From Caballeronia glebae (lineage in GTDB: Bacteria; Pseudomonadota; Gammaproteobacteria; Burkholderiales; Burkholderiaceae): a stretch of 64,000 nt of DNA. The translations under genes and the position numbers were made by a program. Below the pieces are notes generated by a model. It ran no database searches. It was not told the origin of the DNA and saw nothing but the letters and a program-made list of their open reading frames with translations. Where the stretch lies: assembly GCF_001545035.1 (NCBI RefSeq), contig NZ_FCOJ02000035.1:1-64000 (forward strand), in the 5' to 3' direction. This document shows, piece by piece, positions 2,636-61,599 of the stretch. Each line of letters opens with the position of its first letter. Position 1 is the first letter of the stretch.

Positions 2636-3490
2636 TCAAACGCTGCTCGCTTTCTTCGCTTTCGTCTTCGCCGCAGGTGCCGCGGCCGCGTCTTGCGCCT
2701 GCACCGCCGGCCGCTTGAAATAAGGCGAACTCAGGGTCGCCGCGCCCATGTCCGTCGCCGCTTCGAGCAGCGCCGGCGCGAGCTCCTTCAGGCGCGCATC
2801 GGGCAAACGGCTCGTCGGCCCGGCAAGACTCACGACGCCCACGACGACACCCGTCACCGGATGATGGATCGGCGCGGCCATCGACGTCATGCCGGCCTCG
2901 TAAGTCTCGCTCGCGACGCCGTAGCCGCGCTTGCGCGCCGCCTGCAGATCAGCGAGAAACTGCTGGATCGTCTTGGGCGCTTTCGGCCCGCCCGAGCCCG
3001 GCTTGCCGAGACCGCCCTGTTTCGATACGAGTTCGAGCGCCTCCTCATCGGAAAGCGACGACAGCCACGCCTGCCCGCTCGCCGTGCAATGCAAGGGCGG
3101 CTGGCTGCCCATGTCCGGGTCGTAGCGCAAGCCGGACTTCGCGCCCTGCGCCTTGCCGACGAACGTGATGTGATCGTCCTCGACGACGCCAAGCCGCGCC
3201 AGCTCGCCCGACTGCGAAGCGAGCCGGTCGAGCACCGGCTGCGACACATCGAGCACGCCGCCCGTCGACAGATAAATGAGCGCGAGCGACACGAGCTTCA
3301 GCGCGAGCATGTATTCGCCGTGATCCTCGTCCTGCCGCACATAGCCTTCGTCGATCAGCATCGCGAGCAGGCGATGCGTGCCGCTGCGCGGAATATCGAG
3401 CGTATCGGCGATGGCGGCGAGTTGCATCCGCCCGCCGTTTTTCGCCAGAAGCTCGATGATCGACAACGCCCGTTCAAGATTTCCCGCCAT
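2636..3490 (-). CDS. IclR-family transcriptional regulator
   Basis: The N-terminal winged helix (LERALSIIELLAKNGG, then DIPRSGTHRLLAMLIDEGYV) is followed by an IclR effector-binding domain, with the conserved CTASGQAWLS region and a late GVVVGVVSLAGP strand. ATG 3490 is preferred over the longer open frame (to 3595) because the protein then begins directly at the HTH and does not overlap the upstream gene; this gives 284 residues. The tail is alanine/lysine-rich. It is the last regulator-type gene after the FAD/NIPSNAP/isomerase genes and precedes the P450, so it is the natural candidate to control this cluster. IclR-like sites upstream of itself and of the flavoprotein operon fit that. The effector is unknown. 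Confidence 0.9.
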   Translation of the reverse strand: MAGNLERALSIIELLAKNGGRMQLAAIADTLDIPRSGTHRLLAMLIDEGYVRQDEDHGEYMLALKLVSLALIYLSTGGVLDVSQPVLDRLASQSGELARLGVVEDDHITFVGKAQGAKSGLRYDPDMGSQPPLHCTASGQAWLSSLSDEEALELVSKQGGLGKPGSGGPKAPKTIQQFLADLQAARKRGYGVASETYEAGMTSMAAPIHHPVTGVVVGVVSLAGPTSRLPDARLKELAPALLEAATDMGAATLSSPYFKRPAVQAQDAAAAPAAKTKAKKASSV

Positions 3491-3522
3491 TTCTCGATCT
3501 CTCGAAGTTCCGAATCCCAAAT

Positions 3523-3537
3523 GAGAACATGATTCCA
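3523..3537 (-). promoter_or_regulatory. degenerate IclR-type operator candidate upstream of iclR
   Basis: On the minus strand this reads TGGAATCATGTTCTC. It keeps 8 of the 10 fixed half-site positions of the classical IclR pattern TGGAA-N5-TTCCA. It lies about 33 bases before the IclR start, where autoregulation would be expected. On its own the match is weak. It gains weight from the better copies at 8612 and 11430. Confidence 0.3.
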
Positions 3538-3560
3538 CCTCGGAATTCAACTGGCAGGCA

Positions 3561-4385
3561 TCAGTGGCCGGCGTATGTTTCCTCCAGCACCGCAAGCGTC
3601 GCGTCGCGCAGGCGCTTCGCCCGCGTAAGCGCGCTCGCCGTTTTCGCCCATTCGTTCATCGGCACTTCGATCGAGAGCGGGAGATCGTCCGGCAACGCGC
3701 GCAGGATGCCCGCGAGATCGATGCCGCCCTCGCCCGGAATTATGCGTTCGGCGCGCGCCTGATACAGCAGCGTGTCGAGATCGGACGGGCGCTCGGCGGG
3801 CGCGTCGCAGAACTGCACGTAGCCGAACCATTCGCGCGGCAAATCGCTCAGCATCTGGGTCGACGATCCGGCGCGGTCGAAGTGGATCGGATCGACGATC
3901 AGGCCCGTATTCGCGCGCCGCGCCGCCTTCACGATGCGCGCGCCCTGCACGATATCTTTCGCGTCGGTCCAGGGCATCGGTTCGAGCGACGGCGACAATC
4001 TGTACGGTTTCGCGAGATCGCACAACGCGGCGAGCCGTTCGGCCGTGCGCGCCTCGTCGGGATCGTTGCCCGCCACGAGCACGTAGCGCGCGCCCAGTTC
4101 GGCGGCGGTTTCGAGCATCGGTTCGTAATCCACGACGTTCGTGTCGGGCTTCAAGCGCAGGATTTCCGCATCGAGTACGCCGATGCCGGTGTCTTTCAGC
4201 GCCGCGAGCGTTTCGCGCTTCAACGGCGTCGCGCCGACGATCGCGTGGCGCGCTTCCGTATCGGTCGCGGGCACGAGCCGCAGGCCCACGAAATCGTAAC
4301 CGGCCTGCGCCGCGCACTCGACCATCTGCGGCGGCGTCAGTTCGAGGATCGTCAGCGCGGACAAAGATAGCTTGCGTCGTGACAT
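3561..4385 (-). CDS. sugar phosphate isomerase/epimerase (xylose isomerase-like TIM barrel)
   Basis: This 274-residue protein has the AP-endonuclease-2/xylose-isomerase-like barrel pattern. It starts with LSLSALTILELTPPQMVECA and AGYDFVGLRL, then has acidic metal-ligand candidates in SLEPMPW, LIVDPIHFDRAG, VQFCDAP and LSIEVPM at the ends of successive strands. The family includes sugar isomerases, epimerases and dehydroshikimate-dehydratase-like enzymes acting with divalent metal. It starts 14 bases after the NIPSNAP gene in the same operon, so it probably processes an intermediate made by the flavoproteins. The exact substrate is unknown. Confidence 0.85.
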   Translation of the reverse strand: MSRRKLSLSALTILELTPPQMVECAAQAGYDFVGLRLVPATDTEARHAIVGATPLKRETLAALKDTGIGVLDAEILRLKPDTNVVDYEPMLETAAELGARYVLVAGNDPDEARTAERLAALCDLAKPYRLSPSLEPMPWTDAKDIVQGARIVKAARRANTGLIVDPIHFDRAGSSTQMLSDLPREWFGYVQFCDAPAERPSDLDTLLYQARAERIIPGEGGIDLAGILRALPDDLPLSIEVPMNEWAKTASALTRAKRLRDATLAVLEETYAGH

Positions 4386-4399
4386 CGGAAAGTCTCCGG

Positions 4400-5011
4400 T
4401 TAGCGCAGCGGCGAGAACGGCGCGGGCACGTAAATGGTCGATTCCATCGTCGTCAGATGCGCCGGTCCGCCCTTAGGCGGCCAGATGCCGTCCTTCACCG
4501 CTTCCGCGCGAATCCGCGAGCGCTCGTCCACGCTCTTGTACGGCCAGATGTTGAGAAAGCGCGGCACGGTGCCGTCGAGCGCATACATTGCGCCGATGAG
4601 CGGCGAGCGCTGCGTGCGCTCCGGCACGGCGTTGCGCCATGCATCGATCGTGTGTTGCAGGCTCGCGAGCCTGGTGCCGTAGACGCGCATCTCGTAGATG
4701 CCGCCGTGCACGGCCGGTTCGATCGGCGGCAGAAATGGAAACAGCGCGTAGCTATTCACTTCGATATCGGTGATGAACTCGCCGCAGCCGAACGGATTGC
4801 CTTCGAGCAGCAGACGCCGCCGTTCCTCAATCAATGCCGCTTCCGATTCGAAGCCGCGCAACACCATGATCTTGCCGAGCGCGCCGATATCCGAATACCA
4901 GCAGCCGAGCAGCTTCGAGCCGGGCGTGTCGCCGCTCGTCTTGATGTTCTCGAAAACCTGCGCATTCGCGCCGATCTTCACCGTCAACGTGACTGTGTCG
5001 TAAAGAGTCAT
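4400..5011 (-). CDS. NIPSNAP family protein
   Basis: The 203-residue protein holds two ferredoxin-like alpha/beta repeats. The C-terminal one has the NIPSNAP signature: YEMRVYGTRLASLQHTIDAW near residue 115, then RFLNIWPYKSVDER. Bacterial NIPSNAP proteins recur in aromatic and terpenoid degradation operons, but their chemistry is mostly undetermined. The ATG at 5011 overlaps the TGA of the upstream flavoprotein (ATGA), so translation is probably coupled. It is the third gene of a tight operon. Confidence 0.85.
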   Translation of the reverse strand: MTLYDTVTLTVKIGANAQVFENIKTSGDTPGSKLLGCWYSDIGALGKIMVLRGFESEAALIEERRRLLLEGNPFGCGEFITDIEVNSYALFPFLPPIEPAVHGGIYEMRVYGTRLASLQHTIDAWRNAVPERTQRSPLIGAMYALDGTVPRFLNIWPYKSVDERSRIRAEAVKDGIWPPKGGPAHLTTMESTIYVPAPFSPLR

Positions 5012-47424: not shown

Positions 47425-48837
47425 TCATCTTCGTGCAGCACGTCGATAGAACTCGTTCGTCACCATACGCCGCTTGAAGATCGCCCCCGCTGGCATGCCA
47501 AAGAACAAGAGCAGCAAGGTAACGCCAAATACTCCTATAGCCCAGCCCATGCCCGCATCCAATTCGAGAAGGCAGAGCATGAGCAGGCACATGAGGCAAG
47601 CCACCCCGCCAGAGATCGAAGCTTCCCAAAAATCGATTTCCGGCTCCTCGACGGATGCGATTGGCGCGTAGTCGCTTCCAACGAGATTCAGGCGCAGGCC
47701 GTTCGCGTCGGGCATTGCGACAAGCTGCGGTCCTTGTCCATTCAACACGGCTTGCGCGGCAAGCGCTTGCAACAACAGTGGACTTGTCGACTCCGACACA
47801 CCGAGCGCTTGGTCGAGATCGAGCAAGGTCAAGGCTGGCTCGCTGTCCTTGGCGATGGCTTTCACAACATGTCCATCCCGCTTGGCCAGATTGCTGACCC
47901 AAAAATTACGCAGTCGCTTGAGTGGCGTCGGCTCGGCCGTGAACAGGGTCTTGAGCGCGTCAGGTATTTCATCGGTCGTCGTGGGGATGGAGCGGAACAA
48001 TCGAGCTTTGGGCTTGAGCTTCGCATGCTTGAGAAAGTCCCATGACCCGAACAGCAACGCCACGGCTGCCTCGGAAGCAGGCGATTGGGTCGATTGCTCA
48101 TTGAGGTGAAAAGCGAGCACCAGACACAAATCCGGCATCATCTTCTGCCTTTGGGAGCCGTAGCTATATCGCACTTTCTGACTAGTCATCCACTCATTGA
48201 GGTTATTCGGCAACTCTTTCAGTTCGAAGCGGGACATGGCGACGGCCTTGGTGTCGATCTCCAGCCGTTGCAACACGCTTCGCAAGATTCCCAAATGCGT
48301 TTCGTCGCCGGATTGAATCGCAATGTGGATGGTTCGCTTGCCTGCGAAGCGCTGAAACATTCCGGAGAACGGCGTGACGAGCCGCGTCAGAACGTCGTCG
48401 ATGCCCGCGTGCTGTAGCGTCAGAATTTGCCCGGCGTTCGTGGGCGGCGTACCTTCCAGCCCGAGCATGCGTTCGGCCAGTTCTACTTCCGGCGTGAGCG
48501 TCACCGTGTTGAGAATCGACAGGTTCCACTGCGTCCAGCCGCGCCAATCGTTGAAGTAATCTTTACAGAGGAAGTTCCACCACGCCGCGCGGTTGTTCCA
48601 GTCCTCCGAGGGCAGATAAAGGAAGGCACAGAACACGCCCCACAGCAGCACGGGGACGATGAGCGCGCAAGCGAAGAATCGGGCCGAGACGATGGACGTG
48701 CCCTGTTTCCAGTTGAGGATGGTAACGATGAAGCCGACGATGAGCGCGACGAACAACGCAACCACGGCGATCCCGATGGAGGGCGGCTTGGTGGGCTTAT
48801 GCTCGGGCACGTCGGGAATGCGCCAATCCATGCTCAT
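47425..48837 (-). CDS. four-helix membrane protein of the T6SS cargo operon, unknown
   Basis: A 470-residue protein. Two N-terminal helices (GIAVVALFVALIVGFIVTIL; FFACALIVPVLLWGVFCAFL) and two near the C-terminus (ISGGVACLMCLLMLCLLELD; WAIGVFGVTLLLLFFGMPAG) enclose about 330 soluble residues, including IHIAIQSGDETHLGILRSVL. No catalytic motif is evident. The ATG (48837) overlaps the PAAR stop as ATGA, so it is made together with the spike tip protein. It may be a PAAR-borne effector, an immunity protein, or a membrane adaptor; the sequence does not decide. Confidence 0.75.
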   Translation of the reverse strand: MSMDWRIPDVPEHKPTKPPSIGIAVVALFVALIVGFIVTILNWKQGTSIVSARFFACALIVPVLLWGVFCAFLYLPSEDWNNRAAWWNFLCKDYFNDWRGWTQWNLSILNTVTLTPEVELAERMLGLEGTPPTNAGQILTLQHAGIDDVLTRLVTPFSGMFQRFAGKRTIHIAIQSGDETHLGILRSVLQRLEIDTKAVAMSRFELKELPNNLNEWMTSQKVRYSYGSQRQKMMPDLCLVLAFHLNEQSTQSPASEAAVALLFGSWDFLKHAKLKPKARLFRSIPTTTDEIPDALKTLFTAEPTPLKRLRNFWVSNLAKRDGHVVKAIAKDSEPALTLLDLDQALGVSESTSPLLLQALAAQAVLNGQGPQLVAMPDANGLRLNLVGSDYAPIASVEEPEIDFWEASISGGVACLMCLLMLCLLELDAGMGWAIGVFGVTLLLLFFGMPAGAIFKRRMVTNEFYRRAARR

Positions 48838-49091
48838 GCGATGTCCATCCCCTTCGTCGTTGCTCGGACAATGCTGCCGCATTGCGTGCGGCAACCGTCC
48901 GCGACGAGCTGTCGGCCATTCTCGTTGTAGCCGTCGCCGCATTCGGTGATCCGGTTGTCACCGTGAAGGGGGCACGTGACGATGTCATGCAGCAGCGCCA
49001 CATTGCGCCCGTCGATGTCAAACGAGGACGAGGCGGTTTTGACGACGCCACCGTGCGAGGTGGGATCGCCCAGGCGAACAGGTTGTTTCAT
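48834..49091 (-). CDS. PAAR-domain T6SS spike tip protein
   Basis: An 85-residue PAAR protein: MKQPVRLGDPTSHGGVVKTA, then LLHDIVTCPLHGDNRITECG and a C-terminal VADGCRTQCGSIVRAT. It forms the metal-binding cone that sharpens the VgrG trimer, and here has the Cys/His residues (CPLHG, ECG, GCRTQCG) expected to hold zinc. GGAGACTTCG precedes the ATG. It has no C-terminal toxin extension. It lies between the candidate immunity gene and the four-helix membrane gene in the VgrG operon. Confidence 0.92.
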   Translation of the reverse strand: MKQPVRLGDPTSHGGVVKTASSSFDIDGRNVALLHDIVTCPLHGDNRITECGDGYNENGRQLVADGCRTQCGSIVRATTKGMDIA

Positions 49092-49143: not shown

Positions 49144-50490
49144 TTAGGCGCCGAGCCATTCCCAATAAAGTTTCGACGCGGCTTCGTTCGACACTTCGAA
49201 AGTCGGCAGCGACTCGCCCGCGCGGAAACGCCGCTCGTACTGCGTATGCGTCTTATCGTCGGCTGCGGGCGTCCACTGCATAGTGCGTAACACCCAGCGC
49301 CCATCGCGCGCGCATGCTTCACCCGGCTTGCAGATCGTCGCCAGTGCGAGATCGGCTTCCCATTGCCACTGATCCCATTTCGCGTAGTCAAACTTGGGCG
49401 CGGTCTTCCCCGCTTCAAGCTTGGTCAGGAAGGAGCCGCGCGTCCCGCCGATGGCGGAGAGGCGGTAGTAGCCCGACTCGGCGACCATCGCGCCGGATGG
49501 CAGTGCCGACACTTCCTTAGCCTTGCGAGTTTCGAAGTCTTTCCACTCTTGCGGGGTCGAGGGGTAGTCCCGATCGATTGTTATTGATGTCGATTGCATT
49601 TTGAAATCCACTCGATTCGCTAGTGTCTTGCCGTCCAGAACGTAAGTCACGAGTGTGAAACAGATACCGCGAAAATCGAACGTCCCCTTCTTGGCTATTT
49701 TTTCAGGTGCCACTTTAAATGTCAGATTTTTGCTACTTCGTGTCGGTAAAACTACTGTTCCATCCGGAAATTCTTCAGAATTAACAAGTGGAACCCCGCT
49801 AAGAGTGAAACTCCAATTGGTTCCTGCTCCGTAGCTACCGACGCCGAGCGTTCCATCCTCCATTCGCCCTGACCACATATCAGGTGTAGAAAATGAGAGC
49901 GGGGTGTCACCCGCGTTGACAAATCGGATTGATACTAGATACGCACCCGGTTTAGGTTCGATCTTCTCAACCTTCGCGTACAGGTTGAGCAGTTTTGTTC
50001 CACGTTTAATTGCGGCTTCCTGCCACTCAGCCGCAAGCGTTCCTATCCGGGCTCTGCGTTCTTGCGGAATACGGTGCAGCGAACCATCTACGTTAGTCCG
50101 TTGGCCATCGTGCGAGCAAATTGCGCTGAAACGCGCTGAGGTTTCTGAATCGAGTGTAGAAGGTGGGCCGCTCTGGTTTTCGGGAGCACAGAGCAACTCG
50201 GCAACCTCTGCTACTTTGCTCGCGCCGATCTCTCGAACCGGCAGTTCAAAAATTCCCACACTATCTAACCTTGAATCGTTAATAGCGTCCCAAACAGCGA
50301 CCCTTACCTTGTCGTTGTTAATCTCAATAGAGCGGTCGCCATACTGCATACCGCCGCTCCAAGAAAGGGAAAATGTAGGTGCCTCAGTCATCGAATTTTC
50401 CCTCGCAAACGTGTCATCACTCTGATTTAAAAAAATTACCAACCCCAAAAACATCGAAGCTGAACGACTAAATATTTTGCCGGTCATCAT
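49144..50490 (-). CDS. exported protein downstream of VgrG, candidate immunity protein
   Basis: A 448-residue protein. ATG 50490 overlaps the VgrG stop (ATGA). It begins with a basic start and hydrophobic core (MFLGLVIFLNQSDDTFA) that makes a cleavable signal, so it probably acts in the periplasm. The middle has beta-rich segments (FSLSWSGGMQYGDRSIEIN; VRFVNAGDTPLSFSTP-like) and the C-terminus WDQWQWEADLALATICKPG with CxxGEACARDGRW cysteines, then EVSNEAASKLYWEWLGA. No family was recognised. The coupling to an effector-bearing VgrG and the periplasmic targeting are what an immunity protein to a periplasmic metallopeptidase would show. AT content is high in its first two thirds. Confidence 0.72.
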   Translation of the reverse strand: MMTGKIFSRSASMFLGLVIFLNQSDDTFARENSMTEAPTFSLSWSGGMQYGDRSIEINNDKVRVAVWDAINDSRLDSVGIFELPVREIGASKVAEVAELLCAPENQSGPPSTLDSETSARFSAICSHDGQRTNVDGSLHRIPQERRARIGTLAAEWQEAAIKRGTKLLNLYAKVEKIEPKPGAYLVSIRFVNAGDTPLSFSTPDMWSGRMEDGTLGVGSYGAGTNWSFTLSGVPLVNSEEFPDGTVVLPTRSSKNLTFKVAPEKIAKKGTFDFRGICFTLVTYVLDGKTLANRVDFKMQSTSITIDRDYPSTPQEWKDFETRKAKEVSALPSGAMVAESGYYRLSAIGGTRGSFLTKLEAGKTAPKFDYAKWDQWQWEADLALATICKPGEACARDGRWVLRTMQWTPAADDKTHTQYERRFRAGESLPTFEVSNEAASKLYWEWLGA

Positions 50491-53400
50491 TTCGTGCCTA
50501 CTCTCCATGCCATATTTGTTCGCGCGGTGAACCAGAACCTCATATACTCCATATAATGGGCTGGGATAACTGCTTTCGGTAACACGGCTCCACCTCCCAT
50601 CAGGTTTCGGGGAGAATACATCTGCCATTTATGTTTGCCGATGTTAGAGTTTCCCAACTGAAAATTGAGACTCTTGTCATTTTTAACGTAGGTAGAATGC
50701 ACGAATCCTCCGCCTTGCCAGTATTCATCCGGGAAGTTTAAAAGGTGGCCGCATTCGTGTGCAGCCACATTCAGAGCCATCGCAACAGGAACTGCGTTTC
50801 CCCCGTTGTCGATTTCTATATTGTCCTCACCCCAGTTCGCTGCATCAGCTCTTGCCGCTTGCGGATAGATATGCACTTTGCGAACATCCGTCATGGCGTC
50901 CGCTTCGGCTTCGTTAGCAATTAAAAAGTCAACCCGAAACACGATCGAAACTCGCCTTCCGCAAGCACTTCCTTTGCTACATCCATCGAGAACGAGTTTG
51001 TAGTTTCCTTGGTTCAGAGTTCGTTCCACGTCTGCTTTGTATTTGCTCGTATTGATATGCGAGCCAACACGGGCAATTTGTTTGAGGCCAAAATTAGAAA
51101 ATGGCTGAAGGCTATTAGCGCCGTTCGCGTAGGTTTCGTAGGGCGTTGTTTCGTATGACCCGTCTGCCCTGACGATTGGTTCATTAGTTATTGGATCAAG
51201 GTTGGCGAGCAACACCGGGATCAAAACGACTGTAACAGTCGCGGTAAGTGTCTTGTTCTTATCGTCGTATTCAATGGGAAATTTAGTGGTCGCGATGCCA
51301 GAACAAAGCGAAGTTGTCTTGCTTGTTTCAGTGTTCCCGTACTTATAATATTGCGGGGTCTCGCGCGCCCAAATGAATTCGTCGGAAAACGATGGCATGG
51401 ACCATTCACAAATGGCTGCTTCGCTTAGTGCGATAGGTTCACTTGGACTGGCTGCTAGAGGCAGTGTCGGTTCGTCGCTCGGATTTTTGTCAACGTCCTC
51501 TGTTTTGGGTAGGCTTGCTTTCTCGGCCTTCTTGGGTTGCGTTGTCTTTGCTTTCTCGGCCTTCTTGGATTGCGCTGTTTTTGCAGGCGGTTCAAGGCCA
51601 GTGGGCGCAGCAGGGACTGCTACTCCAGCATTGGCGTACTGTTCCCAAGAGGCAAACTTCGATTCCGGCGGCGCGAGCTTTTCAATGGTATTTGAACCGC
51701 CAATCCATGCGTCACATCTAGTGGACCAAGGTGCTACAGCGGGCGCGAACGACGGCCCCGCCAAGTGCATGATCTCCGGCGCTTGTTTGGTCATGCCCGG
51801 CAGCTTCAGTTGGAGCGGCTTGGCGCTGCCCAGCGTGATGGTGCCGTCCTTCAACTCGATATATGCGCCACCGCATTCGAGAACAAGTTCCTTGTTAGCC
51901 CGCACGCGCACCGCACCGTCGGCGCTGGTCACGACGACATCCTTTTGCGCGGCCAGCGCCAGCACGTCGGATTGCGCCTGAATCTCCACTGGGCCTTTGC
52001 CGGCAATCAGCTTGGCCCCAAGCGTGTTGGCGAACAGCGACAGCTTTTCACGGGCAGCAATCGCGACGTTCCTGAACGCGCTGACGTTGAAGCCCTGCGA
52101 AGTCGCCACGCTCACGTCCTTGCCTGCCCCTATCATCACGCGATCCGGCGTGGCAAGCCCGATGCCCTGCGGTGCGGAGAGCGCGATGACCTGCTTCTTG
52201 ATGTCGGCTAGCTCGTCTTTAAGCCACTGGTTCTCGGCCTTCAGATCCGCGATTTCGGCGTTCGATGCGCTCGCACCTTGAGCCAGCGCGCCAGCCTGCG
52301 CCTGCGTGCGCTCGAACAGCGCTGTCGCGCCGCTGGTGTCCGTGACCTGAGCTTGCGTGGCCTGCGGCTCGGTCGAGATGAGCAGTCCCTGAGCTGCACG
52401 GAGTGCGCCTTTGAAATTGGTCTTCAGCTCGAAACCGTCACCGCGCTTCTTGCGCGCCGCGTCAACGATATGCCCGAGGTTCAGTTGCGACTTGCCGCGT
52501 TCGCTCGCGAGCTTGATGTGCTCTTCGTCCGGCCAGTCGTCGGTTCTGAACTTGTTCCGGTGCGTCTGCAAGATCGTGCGGCTCATCCAGCGATCTTCAG
52601 CGACGATCGGATCGTCATTCAGCGAGTTATGGAATATATGGGCGATGTACAGGAGTTCAGGATTGCCGAGATGACCTGCTACGCCTACCTCTGTTCCGTC
52701 ATGCAGACCATAGTGAAAGCCCGTCCGGTGCGAGCCCGCGAAAGGTTTGGCCAGGCGTAGCAGGCAGCTTTCCATGCCCTTGATGCGCGGATCACGGTCG
52801 GCGAGGATTCGGGCAACATACTCGCCGTCTTTGGTGATGAACGGTTGGGAATACTGGTTCGGGGAGGCAATCACGGCCGTGATGTCGCCCTGCATGCGGG
52901 GCCATGTCTCTTCCAGCAAGGGCATCCGATAGAGGCGATCCGATGGAATCGCTTTGTACTCGACCCTGAAGGGCTGCTTGCGCGCGGCGCTGAATTTCGC
53001 GAAGAAGATCAGCATGCCGTACTTGGTGTCCGGAAGCGTGCGATTCGACGGCTTAACCACGTTGCCCGGCATGGCATCCAGCATATTGGTGCTGCCGTGG
53101 TACTCGACCTGCTGCGAAATGGCTGCTTCCTGCCGCAGCAGCGCCTCGACCTGTGCGTCCTCCTTGGTCAGCACAGGCACGCCGTAGGTGTAGCTTTCGC
53201 CGTAGGTGGTCTTGTCGTCGTGGATGACGCTCGTCGCTTCGATGGCATCCGGCGCTTTGCGGTAGTTGTACCCGCGCACCGTGTACGACTGAGGAATCAC
53301 CTTGGTGTGCGTTTCCAGCGAGAAGATTGATTCGGCTCCATCGCTGTTCATGCCGCCTTCGGGCAGCACCGGCACGTTGAGGTTGTCATCGTGCCGATAA

Positions 53401-54080
53401 TGCGTGAAGTCATCGTGGACGTAGATCATCTCGCAGTCTGCGACCGTGTCGCTTTCGCCGCACACGAACCAGATGCCCGCACGGCGGCAAAGCCGCTGGA
53501 TGAAGGTCAGATCGTCCTCTTCCCACTGAGCGATCACGGCACGCTTCACATACTGGCGATAGAGCCGCACCTTGAAATCGGCGCGCAGTTGATCGAAGCC
53601 ATGCTCTTTGAGTATCTGGACGATCACATCGACAAAGCTCTTGTCCCAAAACCAGCGGACCTTCGGCGCATTTCTCAGCAACGCCAGTCGTGATTCGAGA
53701 ACCAGTTCATAGAAACTTTCATCCCGGTTGCTGCTCAGGTGTGTGAAGCCCGTGATGATCCCGTGTATGCCACGCGGCTGCTCCGGCTTGATGCCTCGAC
53801 TCGGTTCGTGCGGCGGCTGAATCAGGAACTTCGCCATCTTGCCCACATAGTCCAGGCGCGTGAGCGCATGCGATGGGTGCGTGAAGCGGAGCTTGACGTG
53901 CGTGGGCTCGCCAATGGCACGGGTGCCCTCGACGCTGAAGATGTCCGCAAAAACCGAACTCGGCTCCTGCGGCATGTCGAGGGAATAGTGCTGATGCGCA
54001 GACAAATGTCTAACGCGCTCGATTTCATAGTCAGACCGTCTATTCAAGGACACCCCCGTGAAAGTGAATGAAACGTTCAA
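50487..54080 (-). CDS. vgrG: evolved VgrG with C-terminal metzincin-like metallopeptidase domain
   Basis: A 1197-residue T6SS spike. Residues 1 to about 560 are the gp27/gp5-like VgrG core (FIQRLCRRAGIWFVCGESD; YLNIAHIFHN-like segment near 510). About 560-800 is the DUF2345-type extension with a coiled coil (AEIADLKAENQWLKDELADI). About 820-880 is a Lys/Ala/Pro linker with repeats. The rest is an effector domain holding HECGHLLNFPDEY (H1108, E1109, H1112, D1118) and a Met-turn RNLMGGG at about 1158, the HExxHxxNxxD plan of metzincin zinc peptidases. The start is TTG 54080 with GGGATAGAG before it. The C-terminal 350 codons are AT-richer than the core. The target protein is unknown. Confidence 0.93.
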   Translation of the reverse strand: MNVSFTFTGVSLNRRSDYEIERVRHLSAHQHYSLDMPQEPSSVFADIFSVEGTRAIGEPTHVKLRFTHPSHALTRLDYVGKMAKFLIQPPHEPSRGIKPEQPRGIHGIITGFTHLSSNRDESFYELVLESRLALLRNAPKVRWFWDKSFVDVIVQILKEHGFDQLRADFKVRLYRQYVKRAVIAQWEEDDLTFIQRLCRRAGIWFVCGESDTVADCEMIYVHDDFTHYRHDDNLNVPVLPEGGMNSDGAESIFSLETHTKVIPQSYTVRGYNYRKAPDAIEATSVIHDDKTTYGESYTYGVPVLTKEDAQVEALLRQEAAISQQVEYHGSTNMLDAMPGNVVKPSNRTLPDTKYGMLIFFAKFSAARKQPFRVEYKAIPSDRLYRMPLLEETWPRMQGDITAVIASPNQYSQPFITKDGEYVARILADRDPRIKGMESCLLRLAKPFAGSHRTGFHYGLHDGTEVGVAGHLGNPELLYIAHIFHNSLNDDPIVAEDRWMSRTILQTHRNKFRTDDWPDEEHIKLASERGKSQLNLGHIVDAARKKRGDGFELKTNFKGALRAAQGLLISTEPQATQAQVTDTSGATALFERTQAQAGALAQGASASNAEIADLKAENQWLKDELADIKKQVIALSAPQGIGLATPDRVMIGAGKDVSVATSQGFNVSAFRNVAIAAREKLSLFANTLGAKLIAGKGPVEIQAQSDVLALAAQKDVVVTSADGAVRVRANKELVLECGGAYIELKDGTITLGSAKPLQLKLPGMTKQAPEIMHLAGPSFAPAVAPWSTRCDAWIGGSNTIEKLAPPESKFASWEQYANAGVAVPAAPTGLEPPAKTAQSKKAEKAKTTQPKKAEKASLPKTEDVDKNPSDEPTLPLAASPSEPIALSEAAICEWSMPSFSDEFIWARETPQYYKYGNTETSKTTSLCSGIATTKFPIEYDDKNKTLTATVTVVLIPVLLANLDPITNEPIVRADGSYETTPYETYANGANSLQPFSNFGLKQIARVGSHINTSKYKADVERTLNQGNYKLVLDGCSKGSACGRRVSIVFRVDFLIANEAEADAMTDVRKVHIYPQAARADAANWGEDNIEIDNGGNAVPVAMALNVAAHECGHLLNFPDEYWQGGGFVHSTYVKNDKSLNFQLGNSNIGKHKWQMYSPRNLMGGGAVLPKAVIPAHYMEYMRFWFTARTNMAWRVGTK
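51515..51574. repeat. 27-bp direct repeat in the VgrG linker
   Basis: A 27-base unit occurs at 51515-51541 and 51548-51574, differing at one position (33-base period). It encodes the linker repeats QxKKAEKA (about residues 836-855). Such repeats at the junction of core and effector can serve as recombination points for swapping C-terminal domains; this is inference. Confidence 0.8.
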
Positions 54081-54130: not shown

Positions 54131-54529
54131 TTAAACGTCAGATATTTTGAGAACAACCTCAAGTGCGGCGGTCGTATGCTGAGCGATCGACTGCGTTTCG
54201 CGTGTGGCGATAAGTAGCGTTTCAAGGTTTTCTATCAAACGCGGGTCATCAGGCGCGTCACGCTGCACGATCAGCACGATGTTGACGAGCGCCGATAGCG
54301 CCTCAGCCATTGCGGCCATGCCTGATTGAGTCTGCGCAACGACGGGTTCGTACACCAACGCGAGGCGTTCGTAATCGCGCGCATGCCTGCGCGCATGCCG
54401 AAGCTGTGATACGAGCTTGCCGTTGCGCGCCCGCTCGTCCAGTAGTTGTGTCCGGAGTGCTTCGACTGGCGGATTCAGAGAGATGATCCGGTCCATGAAG
54501 TCCTTGAATTGCCAGGGAGGTTCAGTCAT
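54131..54529 (-). CDS. hypothetical helical protein upstream of vgrG (132 aa)
   Basis: A soluble, mostly helical protein: MTEPPWQFKDFMDRIISLNP, coiled-coil-like LDERARNGKLVSQLRHARRH, and heptad leucines in MAAMAEALSALVNIVLIVQ and LIENLETLLIATRETQS. It starts 30 bases after a terminator hairpin and ends 50 bases before vgrG, so it is probably the first gene of the VgrG operon. It does not match DUF4123, DUF1795 or other known T6SS adaptors by eye. An adaptor role is possible from position alone. Confidence 0.6.
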   Translation of the reverse strand: MTEPPWQFKDFMDRIISLNPPVEALRTQLLDERARNGKLVSQLRHARRHARDYERLALVYEPVVAQTQSGMAAMAEALSALVNIVLIVQRDAPDDPRLIENLETLLIATRETQSIAQHTTAALEVVLKISDV

Positions 54530-54560
54530 AGGAAGTCCTGATTCGACAAGTAGATTCCTA

Positions 54561-54595
54561 AAAAAAAACCCGCCGAACTGAAAGCGCGGCGGGGC
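54561..54595 (-). terminator. rho-independent terminator for the 54650-55165 gene
   Basis: On the minus strand CCCGCCG (54587-54593 complement) pairs with CGGCGGG (54569-54575 complement) across an 11-base loop and is followed by a run of eight or nine T (A run 54560-54568 on the plus strand). It lies 55 bases after the upstream gene, separating it from the VgrG operon. Confidence 0.75.
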
Positions 54596-54649
54596 AAAAA
54601 GAGAGAAGTCTCCGTAAGCCGTTACGGTGACTTCTCCGAGGCGCCAGAA

Positions 54650-55165
54650 TCAGGTGAGGGTTGATTCAATCGGCATTGCACCGCGCTTTTCCAGCCACGC
54701 GAGCAGCGGTTCGGCGGCGGCGCATAAGTCGCCCAGCACGCCGCGCAGAGCCGCAACCTTGCAGCGCATCGCGATCGCGTTATCTGCATAGGCAGCCAAC
54801 GAGTGAATCACTTCCAGATTGAATCTCGTCACTGCCACGCTGACGGTGTCCTTGAATCGTTGCTTCAACGCTTGGTAGTCCTGATCGATAGGGTCGATCA
54901 AAGCGTCGCTATGGTTCAGATAGTCAGCCAGGGTTCGGTTAAGGGCGTAGGCACCCTCCGAAACAATTTCCTCATAGGCTGCAAAGGAGATGGCGTTGCG
55001 TCCTTGAGCCTCGCGCAGCAACCACGAGCAACGCACCGCCTTTTCTTGAAGGTTTCGCACGCGCATAGCGACGCGCGTAGCAAGCACGGGCGTCTTATTG
55101 AAACGCAGTGAATGCCGGGGCGGCTTCGACGGGCTTGCTGCTTCGCGTTTGACTTCTTGCAACAT
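54650..55165 (-). CDS. hypothetical protein (171 aa), phage- or island-associated
   Basis: Start ATG 55165 has AGAGGACC before it. The protein has a basic N-terminus (MLQEVKREAASPSKPPRHSL) and a helical body (YEEIVSEGAYALNRTLADYL; AVTRFNLEVIHSLAAYADNA; GDLCAAAEPLLAWLEKRGAM). There are no membrane segments and no motif with a known function. It lies directly downstream of the 55188-55387 structured RNA element on the same strand, so its expression may be controlled by that element. Its own terminator follows. Confidence 0.6.
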   Translation of the reverse strand: MLQEVKREAASPSKPPRHSLRFNKTPVLATRVAMRVRNLQEKAVRCSWLLREAQGRNAISFAAYEEIVSEGAYALNRTLADYLNHSDALIDPIDQDYQALKQRFKDTVSVAVTRFNLEVIHSLAAYADNAIAMRCKVAALRGVLGDLCAAAEPLLAWLEKRGAMPIESTLT

Positions 55166-55187
55166 GGATGGTCCTCTGTTCGTGGAC

Positions 55188-55387
55188 CCACCCCACACGA
55201 GGGGTGGACGGGCACAGCAGCAGGTTCAACCCCGATATGCGGAAAGACGTACATACCGGCCCTGCTGCGGCCCGCCCATAGGCGAACAGCAGCACTCGCG
55301 GCCCGAATGGGCGCGCGATGCCGAGTGCTCCGCCCGTGTCGGCGCGGAGCGTCTTTCCTAACTGCTACATCACGCCGGGGTTGAACC
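55188..55387 (-). ncRNA. highly structured RNA element (leader or antisense RNA, C4-like in position)
   Basis: Six exactly complementary segments nest within 200 bases: 55223-55234 with 55376-55387 (12 bp, GGTTCAACCCCG/CGGGGTTGAACC); 55241-55249 with 55350-55358 (9 bp, GGAAAGACG/CGTCTTTCC); 55328-55333 with 55344-55349 (6 bp); 55292-55298 with 55322-55328 (7 bp) enclosing GCCC/GGGC at 55301-55312; 55262-55267 with 55287-55292 (6 bp) enclosing CGCC/GGCG at 55273-55284; and a hairpin 55188-55194 with 55201-55207 (7 bp) just before the following gene. Two long helices stack and close a three-way junction. Overlapping arginine-rich frames on both strands look like artefacts over an RNA. Phage C4 antisense RNA or a leader regulating the 171-aa gene are the best guesses; the class is not proven. 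Confidence 0.55.
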
Positions 55388-56058: not shown

Positions 56059-57072
56059 TCAAAAATTGAAGTTGTCGATATTAGCCGCATCGAAGGTCGT
56101 CGGCGGGCCGAGAATCACCTCGCCGCTCTTGCCGACCGTGCGCTTGCCCAGCTTGCCCGCCTCGAACGAATCGCCTTCCTTGCCGGTGATCGTCCCGGAC
56201 GCGAGATTGGCCGCCGCGAACGCCGCGAGATAACCCAGTTGACCCGGGTCCCACAACTGGAACGCCTTGACCGTGCCGTTCTTCACGAACGCGCGCATCT
56301 GATTCGGCGTGCCGAGGCCCGTCACGACCACCTTGCCCTTAGCCGGAGAGCTGGAGATATAACGCGCCGCCGCCGCGATCCCGACCGATGTCGGCGCGAC
56401 GATGCCCTTCAGGTTCGGATAAGCCTGCAACAAACCCTGCGTTTCGACGAAGGACTTTTGATCGTCGTCGTTGCCGTAGGCGATCTTCACGAGCTTCATC
56501 TTCGAATACTCGGGCTTCTTCAGTTCCTCCTGCATCCACTTGATCCAGGTGTTCTGGTTCGTCGCGTTGGGCGTCGCCGAGAGAATTGCAAACTCGCCCT
56601 CGCCGCCGATCAGCTTCGACAGCAATTGAATCTGCCCGCGCCCGATCGCTTCCGAATCGGCCTGATTGACGAAGATCTGCCGGCCGTCGGACGCCGTGTC
56701 GGAATCGAAGGTCACGACCTTGATGCCCTGCGACATCGCCTTCTTCAGATACGGCACGACCGCGTTGGCGTCGTTCGCCGCGATCACGATCGCGTTCTGC
56801 CGCTGCGTGATGAGCGTATTGATATAGCTCACCTGCGACGATGCGCCCGCATCCGACGGACCGACGACCTTGCCATCGCCTTTCAGCTCCTTGATCGCCG
56901 CCATGCCGCCGTCGTCCGCGATCACTTCGTAAGGGTTGTTGATCTGCTTGGGCAGGAAGGCGATCTTCAGGCCGCTCTTCACGTCTGCGGCGCTCGCGGA
57001 CAGCGCGACGGTCGCGGCGAGAAACGCCGCAACCAGCGCCGGGCCGCGCGCGAATCGAATGGGCTTTTTCAT
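56059..57072 (-). CDS. rhaS: rhamnose ABC transporter, periplasmic substrate-binding protein
   Basis: A 337-residue periplasmic-binding protein of the pentose/hexose (ribose-type) group. The signal is FARGPALVAAFLAATVALSA with cleavage near SASA|A; mature LKIAFLPKQINNPYEVIADD, then IVIAANDANAVVPYLKKAM and VVTFDSDTASDGRQIFVNQA. It captures the sugar and hands it to the two permeases. ATG 57072 opens the signal peptide. It is the last gene of the operon, downstream of the permeases, and is followed by a strong terminator. Confidence 0.92.
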   Translation of the reverse strand: MKKPIRFARGPALVAAFLAATVALSASAADVKSGLKIAFLPKQINNPYEVIADDGGMAAIKELKGDGKVVGPSDAGASSQVSYINTLITQRQNAIVIAANDANAVVPYLKKAMSQGIKVVTFDSDTASDGRQIFVNQADSEAIGRGQIQLLSKLIGGEGEFAILSATPNATNQNTWIKWMQEELKKPEYSKMKLVKIAYGNDDDQKSFVETQGLLQAYPNLKGIVAPTSVGIAAAARYISSSPAKGKVVVTGLGTPNQMRAFVKNGTVKAFQLWDPGQLGYLAAFAAANLASGTITGKEGDSFEAGKLGKRTVGKSGEVILGPPTTFDAANIDNFNF

Positions 57073-57146
57073 GTCGTAAAGTCTCCTGTCATTGCGCATG
57101 ACTGCGCTGGTTTGCAACGGATTCCCGCAACGGACACCACACCGGC

Positions 57147-58151
57147 TCAAAGCGCCTGCGCCATGAGACGCTTCTCGCGCGCCGCCCGCCAACGCGCGAC
57201 GAGATTCGGGATCAGCACCGACGAGAGCAACAGCGCGCCCGTCACGATGGTGAGCGTTTCACTCGATACATCCGCGAGCGTCAGCGCGTTGCGCAGCACG
57301 CCGATGATCACGAGCGACAGCAGTACGCCGATCATCGAGCCGCGTCCGCCGAAGATGCTCACGCCGCCGAAGAGCACCGCCGCGATCACGGAAAGCTCGA
57401 AGCCTTCGCCGTTGTCGCCGCGCGCGCTCGTGAAGCGCAGCGTATAGACGATGCCCGCGAGCGCCGCCATCGCGCCCGACATCATGAAGAGCCTGAGCTT
57501 CGTCTTCGCCACGTCGATGCCCGAGAACTGCGCGGCTGTCGGATTCGCGCCGATGGCGAAGAGGCTGCGGCCGAACGGCGTCGCCTGTAGCAATACCGTG
57601 AAAATGATTGCGCCCGCAATCACCAGGACGAACGGCATCGGCAGGAAGGTGTCGCCGAGCGTGTTGATGCCGAAGGCCGTGTACGACGCGGGAAAATCCG
57701 CGATCGCCTGATCGCCGAGCAGCACGTAGGCAAGACCGCGAAAGAGCGCGAGCGTGCCGATCGTCACCGCGAGCGAAGGCAGACTGAAGCGCACGATCAC
57801 GAGGCCGTTGAGCAGGCCCGCGAGCGTGCCGAAGACGAGCACGAGGACGATCACGAGCGGCATCGGCAGACCCATGTGCCACAGCACGCCCATCAGCGCG
57901 CTCGATGCGCCGAGCACCGAAGCCACCGACAAATCGATCTCCGCCGCGACGATGATGAGCGTCATCGGCAGCGCGATCAGCGCGATTTCGGTGAAGTCCG
58001 CGAGCATGTTCGCCATATTCGCCGTCGAGAGAAACAGCGGCGACAACACGCGCCCCGCGACGAGCGAGACGACGAGCACGATCGCGAGCATCGCTTCCCA
58101 TTGCAGGTGGCGGCGCTTGGTCGTCGACAGAGCGGAATCGGGTTTAGCCAT
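57147..58151 (-). CDS. rhaQ: rhamnose ABC transporter permease
   Basis: A 334-residue inner-membrane permease of the ribose/xylose BPD type with eight to ten helices and the EAA-like region FGGVSIFGGRGSMIGVLLSL near the C-terminus. It pairs with the upstream permease (RhaP), which it overlaps by eight bases. The rhaP/rhaQ assignment rests on gene order known from rhizobial rhamnose operons, not on a sequence difference that I could test. Confidence 0.88.
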   Translation of the reverse strand: MAKPDSALSTTKRRHLQWEAMLAIVLVVSLVAGRVLSPLFLSTANMANMLADFTEIALIALPMTLIIVAAEIDLSVASVLGASSALMGVLWHMGLPMPLVIVLVLVFGTLAGLLNGLVIVRFSLPSLAVTIGTLALFRGLAYVLLGDQAIADFPASYTAFGINTLGDTFLPMPFVLVIAGAIIFTVLLQATPFGRSLFAIGANPTAAQFSGIDVAKTKLRLFMMSGAMAALAGIVYTLRFTSARGDNGEGFELSVIAAVLFGGVSIFGGRGSMIGVLLSLVIIGVLRNALTLADVSSETLTIVTGALLLSSVLIPNLVARWRAAREKRLMAQAL

Positions 58152-59187
58152 GATCGCGTTTCCTCATCATGCGGCGCGCGACCGAGCGCGCGAGCAACGT
58201 ATCGAGCGCGATCGCCGCGACGATCAGCGCGCCTTGAATCGCCTGCTGCCAGAACGGCGACACGCGCAACACCACCAGCGCGATGTTGATGACGCCGAGC
58301 ACGAGCGCGCCGAGCGTCGCGCCGGCGATCGTGCCGACGCCGCCCGTGATCGCAACGCTGCCGACCACCGCCGCCGCGACCACCTGCAGTTCGATGCCCT
58401 TGGCCGTGCTCGCGTCAACGGTGCCGAAGCGCGCGAGCCACAGCACGCCCGCGAGCCCCGCGATCGCGCCGGAGAGCAGGAAGCCGATCATCACGCGGCG
58501 ATCCACGCGTATGCCCGCGAGACGAGCCGCTTCGGGGTTCGAGCCGATCGCGTAGTGCTCGCGTCCGCCGCGATACTGCTTCAGATAGACCGACAGCGCG
58601 ATCAGCACGACGAGCGCGATCAGCACGAGATTCGGCACGCCGAAGAGCGAGCCCGTCGCGATAGACGCGAACGAATCAGGCAGGCTCGTCGCGTTGATCT
58701 GGCCGCCGTGTACCCACGCGTAGTCCGCGCCGCGCACGATATAGAGCGTCGAAAGCGTCGCGACGAGCGAGGGCACGCGCCCGAACGTGACGAGCGCGCC
58801 GTTCACCGTGCCGATGATCAAGCCGACGCCGATGCCCCCGAGCATCGCGACGATCACCGGCATGTGCGGGAACATCACGAAGAGGCTGCCGACCGCATAC
58901 GCGCTCACGCCGACGACCGACGCGACCGACAGATCGATATGCCGCATCAGCATCACGATCGTCATGCCCGCCGTCAGCAGGCCGATGATCGACACGTTGA
59001 GCAGCACGTCGCGCAGATTCTGCAGGTTCAGGAAGTCGGGCTTTGCCGCGGCCGTCGCGCCGATCAGCACGAGCAGCACGATGAAGAGCGTGAGCTCGCG
59101 GCTCTTCGCGATCGTGACCGCGATACTTTCACGTTTGGATTCGGTCGGCGGCATCGCGGTTAGCGTCGGAGAGTGTCGTGTCATCAT
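58144..59187 (-). CDS. rhaP: rhamnose ABC transporter permease
   Basis: A 347-residue permease beginning at ATG 59187, which overlaps the stop of the ATPase gene. It has a cytoplasmic N-terminus of about 30 residues, helices such as [20 protein letters not shown] and [20 protein letters not shown], and the late motif [20 protein letters not shown]. It forms the membrane channel with RhaQ. The longer open frame to 59472 is within the ATPase gene and is not used. Confidence 0.88.
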
Positions 59188-60698
59188 GCTGCGCGTCCCA
59201 TCGTTTGTGGCGAGGCGCCCAAAGCAGCGCTCATCACGCGTTCTTCGTTCGCATCCGCGCGGGCGATATCCGCGCTGATGCGGCCTTCGTGCATCACGAG
59301 CACGCGATCGGCCATGCCGAGCACTTCGGGCAGCTCGCTCGAAATCATCAGCACGGCCATGCCTTCTTTCACGAGTTCGGCGAGCGTGCGATACACCTCC
59401 GCCTTCGCGCCCACGTCGATGCCGCGCGTCGGTTCGTCGATGATCAGCACCCTCGGATGCGTCGCGAGCCATTTGCCGAGCACGACCTTTTGCTGATTGC
59501 CGCCCGATAGCGTGCCGACCGGCGCATCGAGATCGCCGGCCTTGAGACGAAGCCGCTTGCCCCAGTCGGCGGCGAGCGCCGATTCGCTTTTCGCCGTGAT
59601 GAGCCCGTGGCGCATCAATCGGCCGAGCACGGTCAAAGACGCGTTGCGCGCGATGCTCAACTCCAGCGCGAGCCCTTGCGCGCGGCGATCCTCCGGCACG
59701 AGCGCGAGGCCGGCGCGCACCGCCGCCGCCGGATGTCCCAGCGCGAGTGTCTTGCCGGCGATCTTCACCTCGCCGCCATCGACCGGATCGATGCCGAAGA
59801 TCGCGCGCGCGACCTCGCTGCGTCCCGCGCCGACGAGTCCCGCCAGCGCGACGATCTCGCCCGCGCGCACATCGAACGACACGTTCTTGAACACGCCTTC
59901 GCGCGTGAGATTGCGCACCGAAAGACGCACGTCCCCGGGCGCGACATCGGCTTTCGGATAGAACGTGTCGAGATCGCGGCCGACCATTTTGCTCACGATC
60001 GCGTCGATGCTCATGTCTTCGGTGAGCGCGTCGTAGACCTTCATGCCGTCGCGCATGATCGTCATGCGCTGCGTCAGCGCGAACACTTCATCGAGACGAT
60101 GCGTGATGAACAGAATCGCCACGTCGCGCTCGCGCAACGCGCGCACGATCGCGAAGAGCCGTTCGACTTCCGGCAGCGAGAGCGCGGCGGTCGGCTCGTC
60201 CATGATCAGCACGTTTGCATCGAGCGAGAGCGCCTTGGCGATTTCCACGACCTGCTGATCCGCGATCGACAATCCGCGCACGAGCCGTTGCGCGCGCAGA
60301 TTCACGCCGAGCGACGCCAGCAGCGCATCGACCTCGCGATGCATTTCGTCATAGCGAATGCGCCCGAAGCGATCGCGCGGCTGCCGGCCCATATAGATGT
60401 TCTCGGCGATGGACAGATCCGCGAAGAGTGTCGGCTCCTGATAGATCACGGCGATGCCGGCATCGCGCGCTTCGGCGGGATTCGCGAAGCGCCGCGCGAC
60501 GCCTTCGACGAGCAACTCGCCCGCATCCGGCCGATACACGCCCGCGAGCAGCTTCACGAGCGTCGATTTGCCCGCGCCGTTCTCGCCGAGCAGCGCGTGT
60601 ACTTCGCCGGGAAAGAGTTGCAGGCTGCCGTCGCCGAGCGCGCGCACGCGACCGAACGATTTGCTTGCATGCCGCAGTTCAAGACGTGGCGTCGTCAT
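59184..60698 (-). CDS. rhaT: sugar ABC transporter ATP-binding protein, duplicated domains
   Basis: A 504-residue double-ATPase of the sugar-import type. The first domain has Walker [37 protein letters not shown] and Walker [13 protein letters not shown]. The second domain has a degenerate Walker A ([18 protein letters not shown]), signature [16 protein letters not shown] and [14 protein letters not shown]. It energises RhaPQ. ATG 60698 starts at [16 protein letters not shown]. It begins 10 bases after the lactonase gene and overlaps rhaP. Confidence 0.93.
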
Positions 60699-60708
60699 GT
60701 CGTTTTCC

Positions 60709-61599
60709 TCAGATGCGGTAGATGCGTTCGGCGTTGCGCACGAAGAGCGCGTCTTTCTCGCTATCGCTCGCATCGGCGACGATCCGCGCATACGCGTTCC
60801 ACAACGCCGTGTACGTGCCGAACAGACGATCCACCGGAAAGTTCGATGCGAACATCGCGCGCTCGACGCCGAACGTATCGATGGTTTCGTGCACGTAAGG
60901 ACGCAGGCTCTCGATGGTCCAGTCGTGATCGAACATCGCGAAGCCGCTCAGCTTCACCGCGACGTTCGGGCACGCGGCCAGCATGCGCATGCCGTCGCGC
61001 CACGCGCGATATCCCCGCGTCGCGTTGCGGTCCACGAACATACCCGCGTGATTGACGATGAATTGCGTATCCGCATGCTCGCGCGCGAGAAGCGCCGCCT
61101 CTTCCATCTGCGACGGATAAAGCTGCAGATCGAACGACATGCCGAAACGCTTCAGCAACGCAAAGTGCTTGCGCCATTGCGGCTCGCGCATGAAATGACG
61201 CCCGACATAATCGTAGAGCCTGTTTTCATGCACGTTGAGAATCTGGCGGATGCCGCGCGTATTGGCGAAGGCCGCATGCGCTTCGAGCACGGCGGGCGCA
61301 TCGTCGGCCGACAGATCCGCGCCCGCGACGATGCCGTTCGGCATGCCGCGACCTTCGCTATCGGCAATGCCTTGCAGCCAGCGCGTTTCCTCGACAGGAT
61401 CGGCGGGATCGTGATTCGCATCGACGTGCACGAGCTTCAGCACTTCGATATCTTCGGCATCGCGCAGCAGATCGGCCAGAAGATAGTCGTGCTGCAAGGC
61501 ACGCGCATCGCCGACGAACGACGTCTGCGGATTCGCGAGCCAGGGATAATGATGCGTCTTGAGGTCCCACAAATGAATGTGCGGATCGACGACCTGCAT
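60709..61599 (-). CDS. amidohydrolase-2 family lactonase (L-rhamnono- or L-fucono-lactonase type)
   Basis: A 296-residue metal-dependent barrel hydrolase. [19 protein letters not shown] carries the first metal ligands (HxH); later [20 protein letters not shown] and FASNFPVD supply the other His and Asp. The protein belongs to the COG3618 group, which includes sugar lactonases that open rhamnonolactone to rhamnonate. It lies between the mutarotase and the ABC transporter, consistent with the second step of the non-phosphorylating route. Confidence 0.87.

Follow-up and report, generated by a model that had tools for sequence, protein, structure and literature searches.

A predicted metzincin-type effector domain on an evolved VgrG of Caballeronia glebae, probably exchanged together with half of its candidate immunity protein

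We analysed a 64,000-nucleotide stretch of Caballeronia glebae DNA (hereafter the window), which forms part of contig C172 in a 7.84-Mb assembly of 194 contigs, and focused on its gene for an evolved VgrG, a spike protein of the type VI secretion system (T6SS) extended by a C-terminal domain (CTD). In the reading that we consider likely, the CTD is an antibacterial metzincin that would be delivered by the T6SS on the VgrG spike, exert catalytic and toxic activity in the periplasm, and be neutralised by an exported immunity protein encoded by the next gene; the CTD and the N-terminal domain of that protein (N-domain) would be exchanged together as a cassette. The central evidence is a strictly conserved zinc motif with a Met-turn, a downstream partner gene with an export-type N-terminus, and close covariation between the CTD and the N-domain.

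The CTD is a conserved family with an uncommon zinc motif

A sequence-only reading of this DNA had proposed an evolved VgrG of 1197 residues at 50487..54080. The open reading frame is indeed present and intact, on the minus strand, and its product contains three VgrG domains, all above their Pfam cut-offs: Phage_GPD (residues 54-351), T6SS_Vgr (505-602) and DUF2345 (623-758). The 1197-residue version starts at TTG; the ATG alternative at 53975 gives the longest ATG-started version, of 1162 residues. The last core match, DUF2345, stops at residue 758 and a conserved domain occupies residues 880-1197, constituting an effector-type extension. We recovered HECGHLLNFPD at residues 1108-1118 and RNLMGGG at 1158-1164, as numbered in that reading. 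Its proposal that the protein is a candidate T6SS effector carried on the spike gains from the VgrG domains, from matches to the sheath protein VipB in the same genome (four, beside four VgrG matches detected with Phage_GPD) and from the adjacent immunity candidate with its export-type N-terminus.

The CTD is a conserved family. A genus-level protein search of 58 genomes, which did not select on the zinc motif, found homologues in 11 genomes, at 13 places. H229, E230, H233, D239 and M282 (CTD numbering) are kept at all 12 places that reach the peptidase half, the window included; this half is missing from the 13th, the broken copy L013. A family-wide profile search gave 44 places, for 30 of which loci were fetched (the 14 excluded include five fragments, as judged by match range). 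HExxH-x5-D, with Asp as the third ligand, and a downstream Met-turn were found by sequence in 30/30 of these loci; H, E, H, D and the Met-turn also persist in members that are 26-44% identical to the window. At the Gly position of the motif, Asn stands in 22 loci, Gly in five, Ser in two and Ala in one. Two Cys residues of the CTD are also invariant. A motif-pattern scan of named genomes yielded 26 further-studied loci (the named loci) in Caballeronia, Paraburkholderia, strains labelled Burkholderia and one Dyella; since its pattern includes part of the motif, conservation was judged from the motif-unselected genus set and the 30 family-wide loci. We also considered the later His, H249 (H1128), for the role of third ligand and rejected it: four divergent loci (L069-L072), which carry HE[TS]GHL[FY]GWPDEY, have Tyr or Phe at this position, and D239 is invariant.

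CTD homologues occur in 35 of 398 sampled Burkholderiaceae genomes, representing 3 of 25 genera. A wide spread was rejected on a class-level sample of 369 genomes, in which the CTD was found only in the window's own genome, together with one weak motif-level match elsewhere. Plasmid carriage was not seen either, as no match was obtained among 72,556 plasmid records.

The CTD resembles metzincins and fits no tested peptidase family

The metzincin consensus is HExxHxxG/NxxH/D, in which Asn occurs in the lower pappalysins and Asp is rare, occurring in snapalysins and thuringilysins, according to a partial text of PMC12237041. The sequence-only reading had called an HExxHxxNxxD plan with Asp as third ligand uncommon, in agreement with this source. 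The window's HECGHLLNFPD conforms to the metzincin zinc motif, as do 27/30 fetched loci in having Asn or Gly at the Gly position.

The earlier description of the domain as a metzincin-like peptidase is likewise upheld by weak M6 matches in 26/26 members, a confident structural model and structural matches that are mostly metzincins, at modest Z. The AlphaFold model of the CTD has a mean predicted local distance difference test score (pLDDT) of 86.8 and a predicted template-modelling score (pTM) of 0.84. It contains helices at 132-143, 223-234 (bearing HExxH) and 295-309, which in our own reading of the model would be the backing, active-site and C-terminal helices, respectively. When the model was compared with known structures, 44 of the 50 matches listed had names that we take to belong to the metzincin clan, with a modest best Z of 5.8. 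A PDB profile search returned four matches at E up to 10, among them a weak one to snapalysin (1c7k, E 0.053) and none to a VgrG2b chain.

No Pfam family reaches its cut-off over residues 880-1197, and the peptidase-family searches placed the CTD in none of M6, M7 and M64. The NCBIfam M6 peptidase domain matches the window CTD weakly (24.4 bits, E 2.4e-5) and its profile weakly matches all 26 members (best E 5.3e-6); hhalign to 13 M6 domains aligned 20 columns only (probability 92). We rejected strict membership of M6 (thuringilysin / immune inhibitor A) at this score, the curated cut-off being 110.8. Strict membership of M7 (snapalysin) was rejected as well: PF02031 gave no match to the window CTD at E up to 10 and matched 4/26 members at E <= 0.1 (best 0.0055), short of the curated Pfam cut-off. 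M64 (igalysin) gave no Pfam match at E up to 10 in the window or at E up to 0.1 in the 26 members, and strict membership was rejected on the motif, which is one residue shorter, and on the absence of a conserved Cys after the Met-turn, IgAse having a structural zinc bound by Cys.

Like M6 thuringilysin and M7 snapalysin, the CTD has HExxH followed by an Asp six residues past the second His; in most M6 sequences compared, this Asp belongs to a PDxY. Unlike them, it scores far below the curated cut-offs, usually has Asn in place of Gly and is fused to a T6SS spike. With M64 it shares an Asp ligand followed by Glu-Tyr; IgAse, however, has the motif HExxHxxxGxxD, with one extra residue before Gly (partial text of PMC12237041), and the CTD has no M64 Pfam match. 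Since the CTD lacks the extra residue, combines Asp and Asp-Glu-Tyr with Asn in most members and stays below the cut-offs, it is metzincin-like and fits none of M6, M7 and M64 in the tests made. Judged from these sequences, it is apparently an unnamed metzincin-type family with a rare Asp ligand.

Two weak similarities of the CTD are recorded here. Profile positions 9-74 (window 51200-51443, CTD residues about 1-80) match phage T4 spackle at E 0.0011 and 0.0021, which may be chance; the target of spackle is gp5, the spike lysozyme of T4. DUF4136 was weakly matched in 9/26 members.

The next gene probably encodes a periplasmic immunity protein

The stop codon of vgrG overlaps the start of a gene for a 448-residue protein, which we divide into the N-domain and a C-terminal domain (C-domain). 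A homologue lies downstream of the CTD in 26/26 named loci (tblastn E <= 1e-4; weakest 1.1e-14). All 24 N-termini examined (the window and 23 loci) have a hydrophobic stretch, with 11-residue Kyte-Doolittle maxima of 1.35 to 3.29, which mostly ends in an Ala-x-Ala type site, as judged by eye rather than by a signal-peptide predictor. In this survey the start chosen by script for L028 is uncertain, and L036 gives a short protein of 331 residues; L016 (homologue in two frames in the matching genome), L018 (contig end) and L039 were omitted. Four Cys residues are invariant in 21 aligned immunity proteins, and these, with the two of the CTD, would suit an oxidising compartment. Weak Ig-like and NPCBM_assoc matches were seen, each in 1/21 members.

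Among the 398 genomes, 26 have both genes, nine the CTD alone and five the immunity gene alone (four of them weak matches), so that 35 genomes have the CTD and 31 the immunity gene; the co-occurrence gives a Fisher value of 2.5e-28, uncorrected for relatedness. Four of the nine CTD-only genomes were looked at (L069-L072), and each has a downstream open frame of 313-319 residues with a hydrophobic start, judged by eye. These frames match parts of the N-domain profile (E 2.3e-11 to 3.4e-7), and the C-domain profile has no match in any of the four. Another CTD-only genome, G725, has a CTD fragment only. With its gene order, its export-type N-terminus and its covariation with the CTD (below) all fitting this role, the product of the adjacent gene is a probable periplasmic immunity protein.

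The CTD and the immunity N-domain covary and may move as one cassette

Over 21 loci, CTD distance correlated with N-domain distance at r 0.948, a value reached by 0/1000 permutations, vs 0.529 for the C-domain. Mean identities over these loci were 0.46 for the CTD, 0.45 for the C-domain and 0.34 for the N-domain. In the 15 loci with VgrG body, CTD and immunity domains all aligned, the CTD correlated with the N-domain at 0.964 (0.959 with VgrG distance removed) and with the C-domain at 0.55. VgrG body distance, by contrast, correlated best with the C-domain (0.741, vs 0.372 with the CTD and 0.346 with the N-domain).

Comparison with Caballeronia temeraria (L030) places the boundaries. Protein identity to the window is 0.86 for VgrG and 0.77 for the C-domain, vs 0.35 for the CTD and 0.22 for the N-domain. 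In 150-bp bins, DNA identity starts at 0.69-0.89 in those parts of the VgrG body that align, drops to 0.35-0.53 over the CTD and N-domain (about 51650 to 49570), returns to 0.62-0.87 through the C-domain, the PAAR gene and the membrane-protein gene, and is 0.37-0.49 outside. L030 lacks a stretch of about 480 bp in the VgrG body, corresponding to residues about 495-654, so its copy may not work. G+C content follows the same division, at 0.596 in the VgrG body, 0.503 in the linker plus CTD, 0.484 in the N-domain and 0.629 in the C-domain; the shift inside the immunity gene, between its two domains, is independent support for a cassette end there. The boundaries thus come from one clear species pair, the window and C. 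temeraria, and the general case from the correlations.

What would be new is exchange by a cassette that ends inside the immunity gene. We favour, with moderate confidence, a unit of exchange that spans from inside vgrG to inside the immunity gene, in which a toxin domain from a new metzincin family, characterised by its Asn/Asp zinc motif, moves together with its cognate N-domain; the constant C-domain would remain with the VgrG body, perhaps as a 3′ recombination anchor. An in-frame toxin-immunity hybrid (L013) would then be one outcome of faulty recombination or of deletion.

Proposed mechanism and alternative roles

In the proposed mechanism, the VgrG body would form the spike, probably capped by the PAAR protein encoded downstream, and the CTD would enter the neighbouring cell covalently attached to VgrG and act most likely in the periplasm. 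By analogy with the metzincin plan, it would be a zinc endopeptidase in which H1108, H1112 and D1118 bind zinc and E1109 activates water, with M1161 as the floor of the Met-turn and Y1120 perhaps as a tyrosine switch. Its cut would fall in an envelope protein and harm the prey. The product of the next gene would be exported to the periplasm and protect the producer and its kin, its N-domain probably binding and blocking the CTD. Recombination at two places, in vgrG ahead of the CTD and close to where the N-domain ends, would transfer the toxin and the cognate half of its immunity protein together into the context of a constant VgrG body and a constant C-domain.

The domain could instead be a metzincin effector directed mainly against eukaryotic hosts or predators (insect, plant or amoeba), with the adjacent gene serving another envelope role. 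Eukaryotic metzincins are many of the structural matches listed, and insect gut symbionts exist in Caballeronia, as partial literature texts have it. The partner gene, however, occurs in 26/26 named loci, encodes an export-type N-terminus and covaries with the CTD, which fits an antibacterial pair better, and one full orphan immunity copy is retained in L116. We therefore regard a mainly eukaryotic target as unlikely.

Many T6SS effectors act on peptidoglycan, and the periplasmic action suggested by the partner's N-terminus would also suit a peptidoglycan hydrolase with a metzincin-like fold in place of a protease. Against this, the domain has no match to a peptidoglycan-binding or known hydrolase domain in Pfam or NCBIfam, and VgrG2b, a periplasmic metallopeptidase effector, is reported in a partial text of PMC6899460 to be without peptidoglycan hydrolase activity; we hold this role to be very unlikely. 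That the CTD is decayed or non-catalytic, its motif kept by descent only, is brought to mind by broken copies in relatives (L013/L117, L116, L115 and L067) and is scarcely credible given an intact window gene and the H, E, H, D and Met-turn retained in every fetched locus, however divergent.

An antibacterial metzincin paired with an exported immunity protein would share its overall way of working with the VgrG2b / Tpe-Tpi family. This family includes Pseudomonas aeruginosa VgrG2b-PA0261 and Acinetobacter baylyi Tpe1-Tpi1. VgrG2b, in the partial text of PMC6899460, is likewise an evolved VgrG with a zinc metallopeptidase tip, and a periplasmic immunity protein is encoded by a small gene downstream. 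The same text describes its tip as a thermolysin-like gluzincin whose third ligand, Glu983, lies on another helix downstream of HExxH, whereas the candidate third ligand of the CTD is an Asp six residues past the second His, and a Met-turn follows. No invariant or nearly invariant Glu occurs past E240 (of DEY) in 16 CTD members, divergent ones included; this, the motif and the Met-turn led us to reject a VgrG2b-like gluzincin identity.

Among the open-licence papers listed in the literature searches, none was seen to describe a metzincin VgrG fusion. A Peptidase_M64 candidate T6SS effector is described in Salmonella SPI-6, not named as a VgrG fusion in the partial text of PMC11669294. In the related genus Burkholderia, the B. 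cenocepacia J2315 tssI (vgrG) is listed with a "metalloprotease domain" in a partial text of PMC6612558, which describes this extension without family or sequence. The predicted assignment would bring a metzincin-type family into the set of T6SS spike effectors, in which VgrG2b, a characterised metallopeptidase of this kind, is a gluzincin. It also provides an immunity candidate and a proposed division of that protein into one half for specificity and one constant half. Were the cassette interpretation true, it would explain how a strain could change its toxin without losing the matching antidote. Beyond the sequence-only reading, the present analysis adds the strand, the immunity gene, two further operon genes (for PAAR and the membrane protein) and the proposed cassette.

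Broken and variant copies

In L013/L117 (G054:C61), the reading frame runs from VgrG and the first half of the CTD directly into the remainder of the immunity protein, with no HExxH left; the membrane-protein gene beyond this hybrid was matched in pieces only. In L116 (about 3176-4916, minus strand), a deletion has fused VgrG residues 12-88 with the final ~40 CTD residues, and a full-length immunity gene is retained as an orphan, most of vgrG and the CTD having been deleted. L115 has an N-terminally short immunity gene next to a truncated VgrG, and L067 has one stop in the vgrG frame.

A different arrangement is found in L039 (Paraburkholderia domus), where at 2178-2867 a PAAR-motif protein is fused to only the peptidase part of the CTD. 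Two such PAAR-like fusions are present in the array, one start-incomplete, with a peptidase part of about 130 residues; a third CTD piece has no HExxH, and each of the three pieces precedes an immunity homologue. The PAAR motif was matched at E 6.7e-5 and 3.3e-4, below Pfam's cut-off. These fusions make a change of carrier from VgrG to PAAR likely in L039, with the peptidase core perhaps the smaller unit.

Operon neighbours and flanking genes

The gene order is vgrG, the 448-residue immunity candidate, PAAR and a membrane protein (Table 1). A PAAR protein similar to the window's was found in 4/26 named loci and membrane-protein homologues in 15/26, some of these loci ending at contig ends.

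Table 1 Features of the vgrG operon in the window
Feature	Position	Strand	Remarks
Evolved vgrG, 1197 aa	50487..54080	-	VgrG domains Phage_GPD, T6SS_Vgr, DUF2345
C-terminal metzincin-like domain (CTD), residues 880-1197, ~318 aa	50490..51443	-	Conserved family; weak M6 matches; AlphaFold model; structural matches at modest Z
Zinc motif HECGHLLNFPD, residues 1108-1118 (H1108, E1109, H1112, D1118)	50727..50759	-	
Met-turn RNLMGGG, residues 1158-1164 (M1161)	50589..50609	-	
Probable immunity gene, 448 aa	49144..50490	-	ATG overlaps vgrG stop (ATGA); signal-peptide-like N-terminus; four invariant Cys
Immunity N-domain	49576..50490	-	Covaries with CTD; part of the proposed exchanged cassette
Immunity C-domain	49144..49575	-	Tracks VgrG body more than CTD; absent in 4/4 divergent loci examined
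PAAR protein, 85 aa, predicted spike tip	48834..49091	-	Pfam PAAR_motif 1.4e-15
Membrane protein, 470 aa	47425..48837	-	Start overlaps PAAR stop (ATGA)

Domain searches gave no confident family match for the 470-residue membrane protein, which may serve the T6SS as an accessory or be a second envelope protein. We considered the Tvp accessory proteins as its identity and rejected them, since PMC13373197, in its partial text, describes DUF2169 proteins and no DUF2169 match was obtained here. Upstream of vgrG, two small open reading frames (54131-55198, minus strand) are without a confident family match, and tblastn at E 1e-4 matched them in none of the 26 named loci. Similarity to C. temeraria stops sharply at about 47400 and 54080, and this loss on both sides marks the segment from vgrG to the membrane-protein gene as an island. 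Upstream, past the island, lie sugar-ABC-transporter-like genes (56059-60791), named by eye from their translations.

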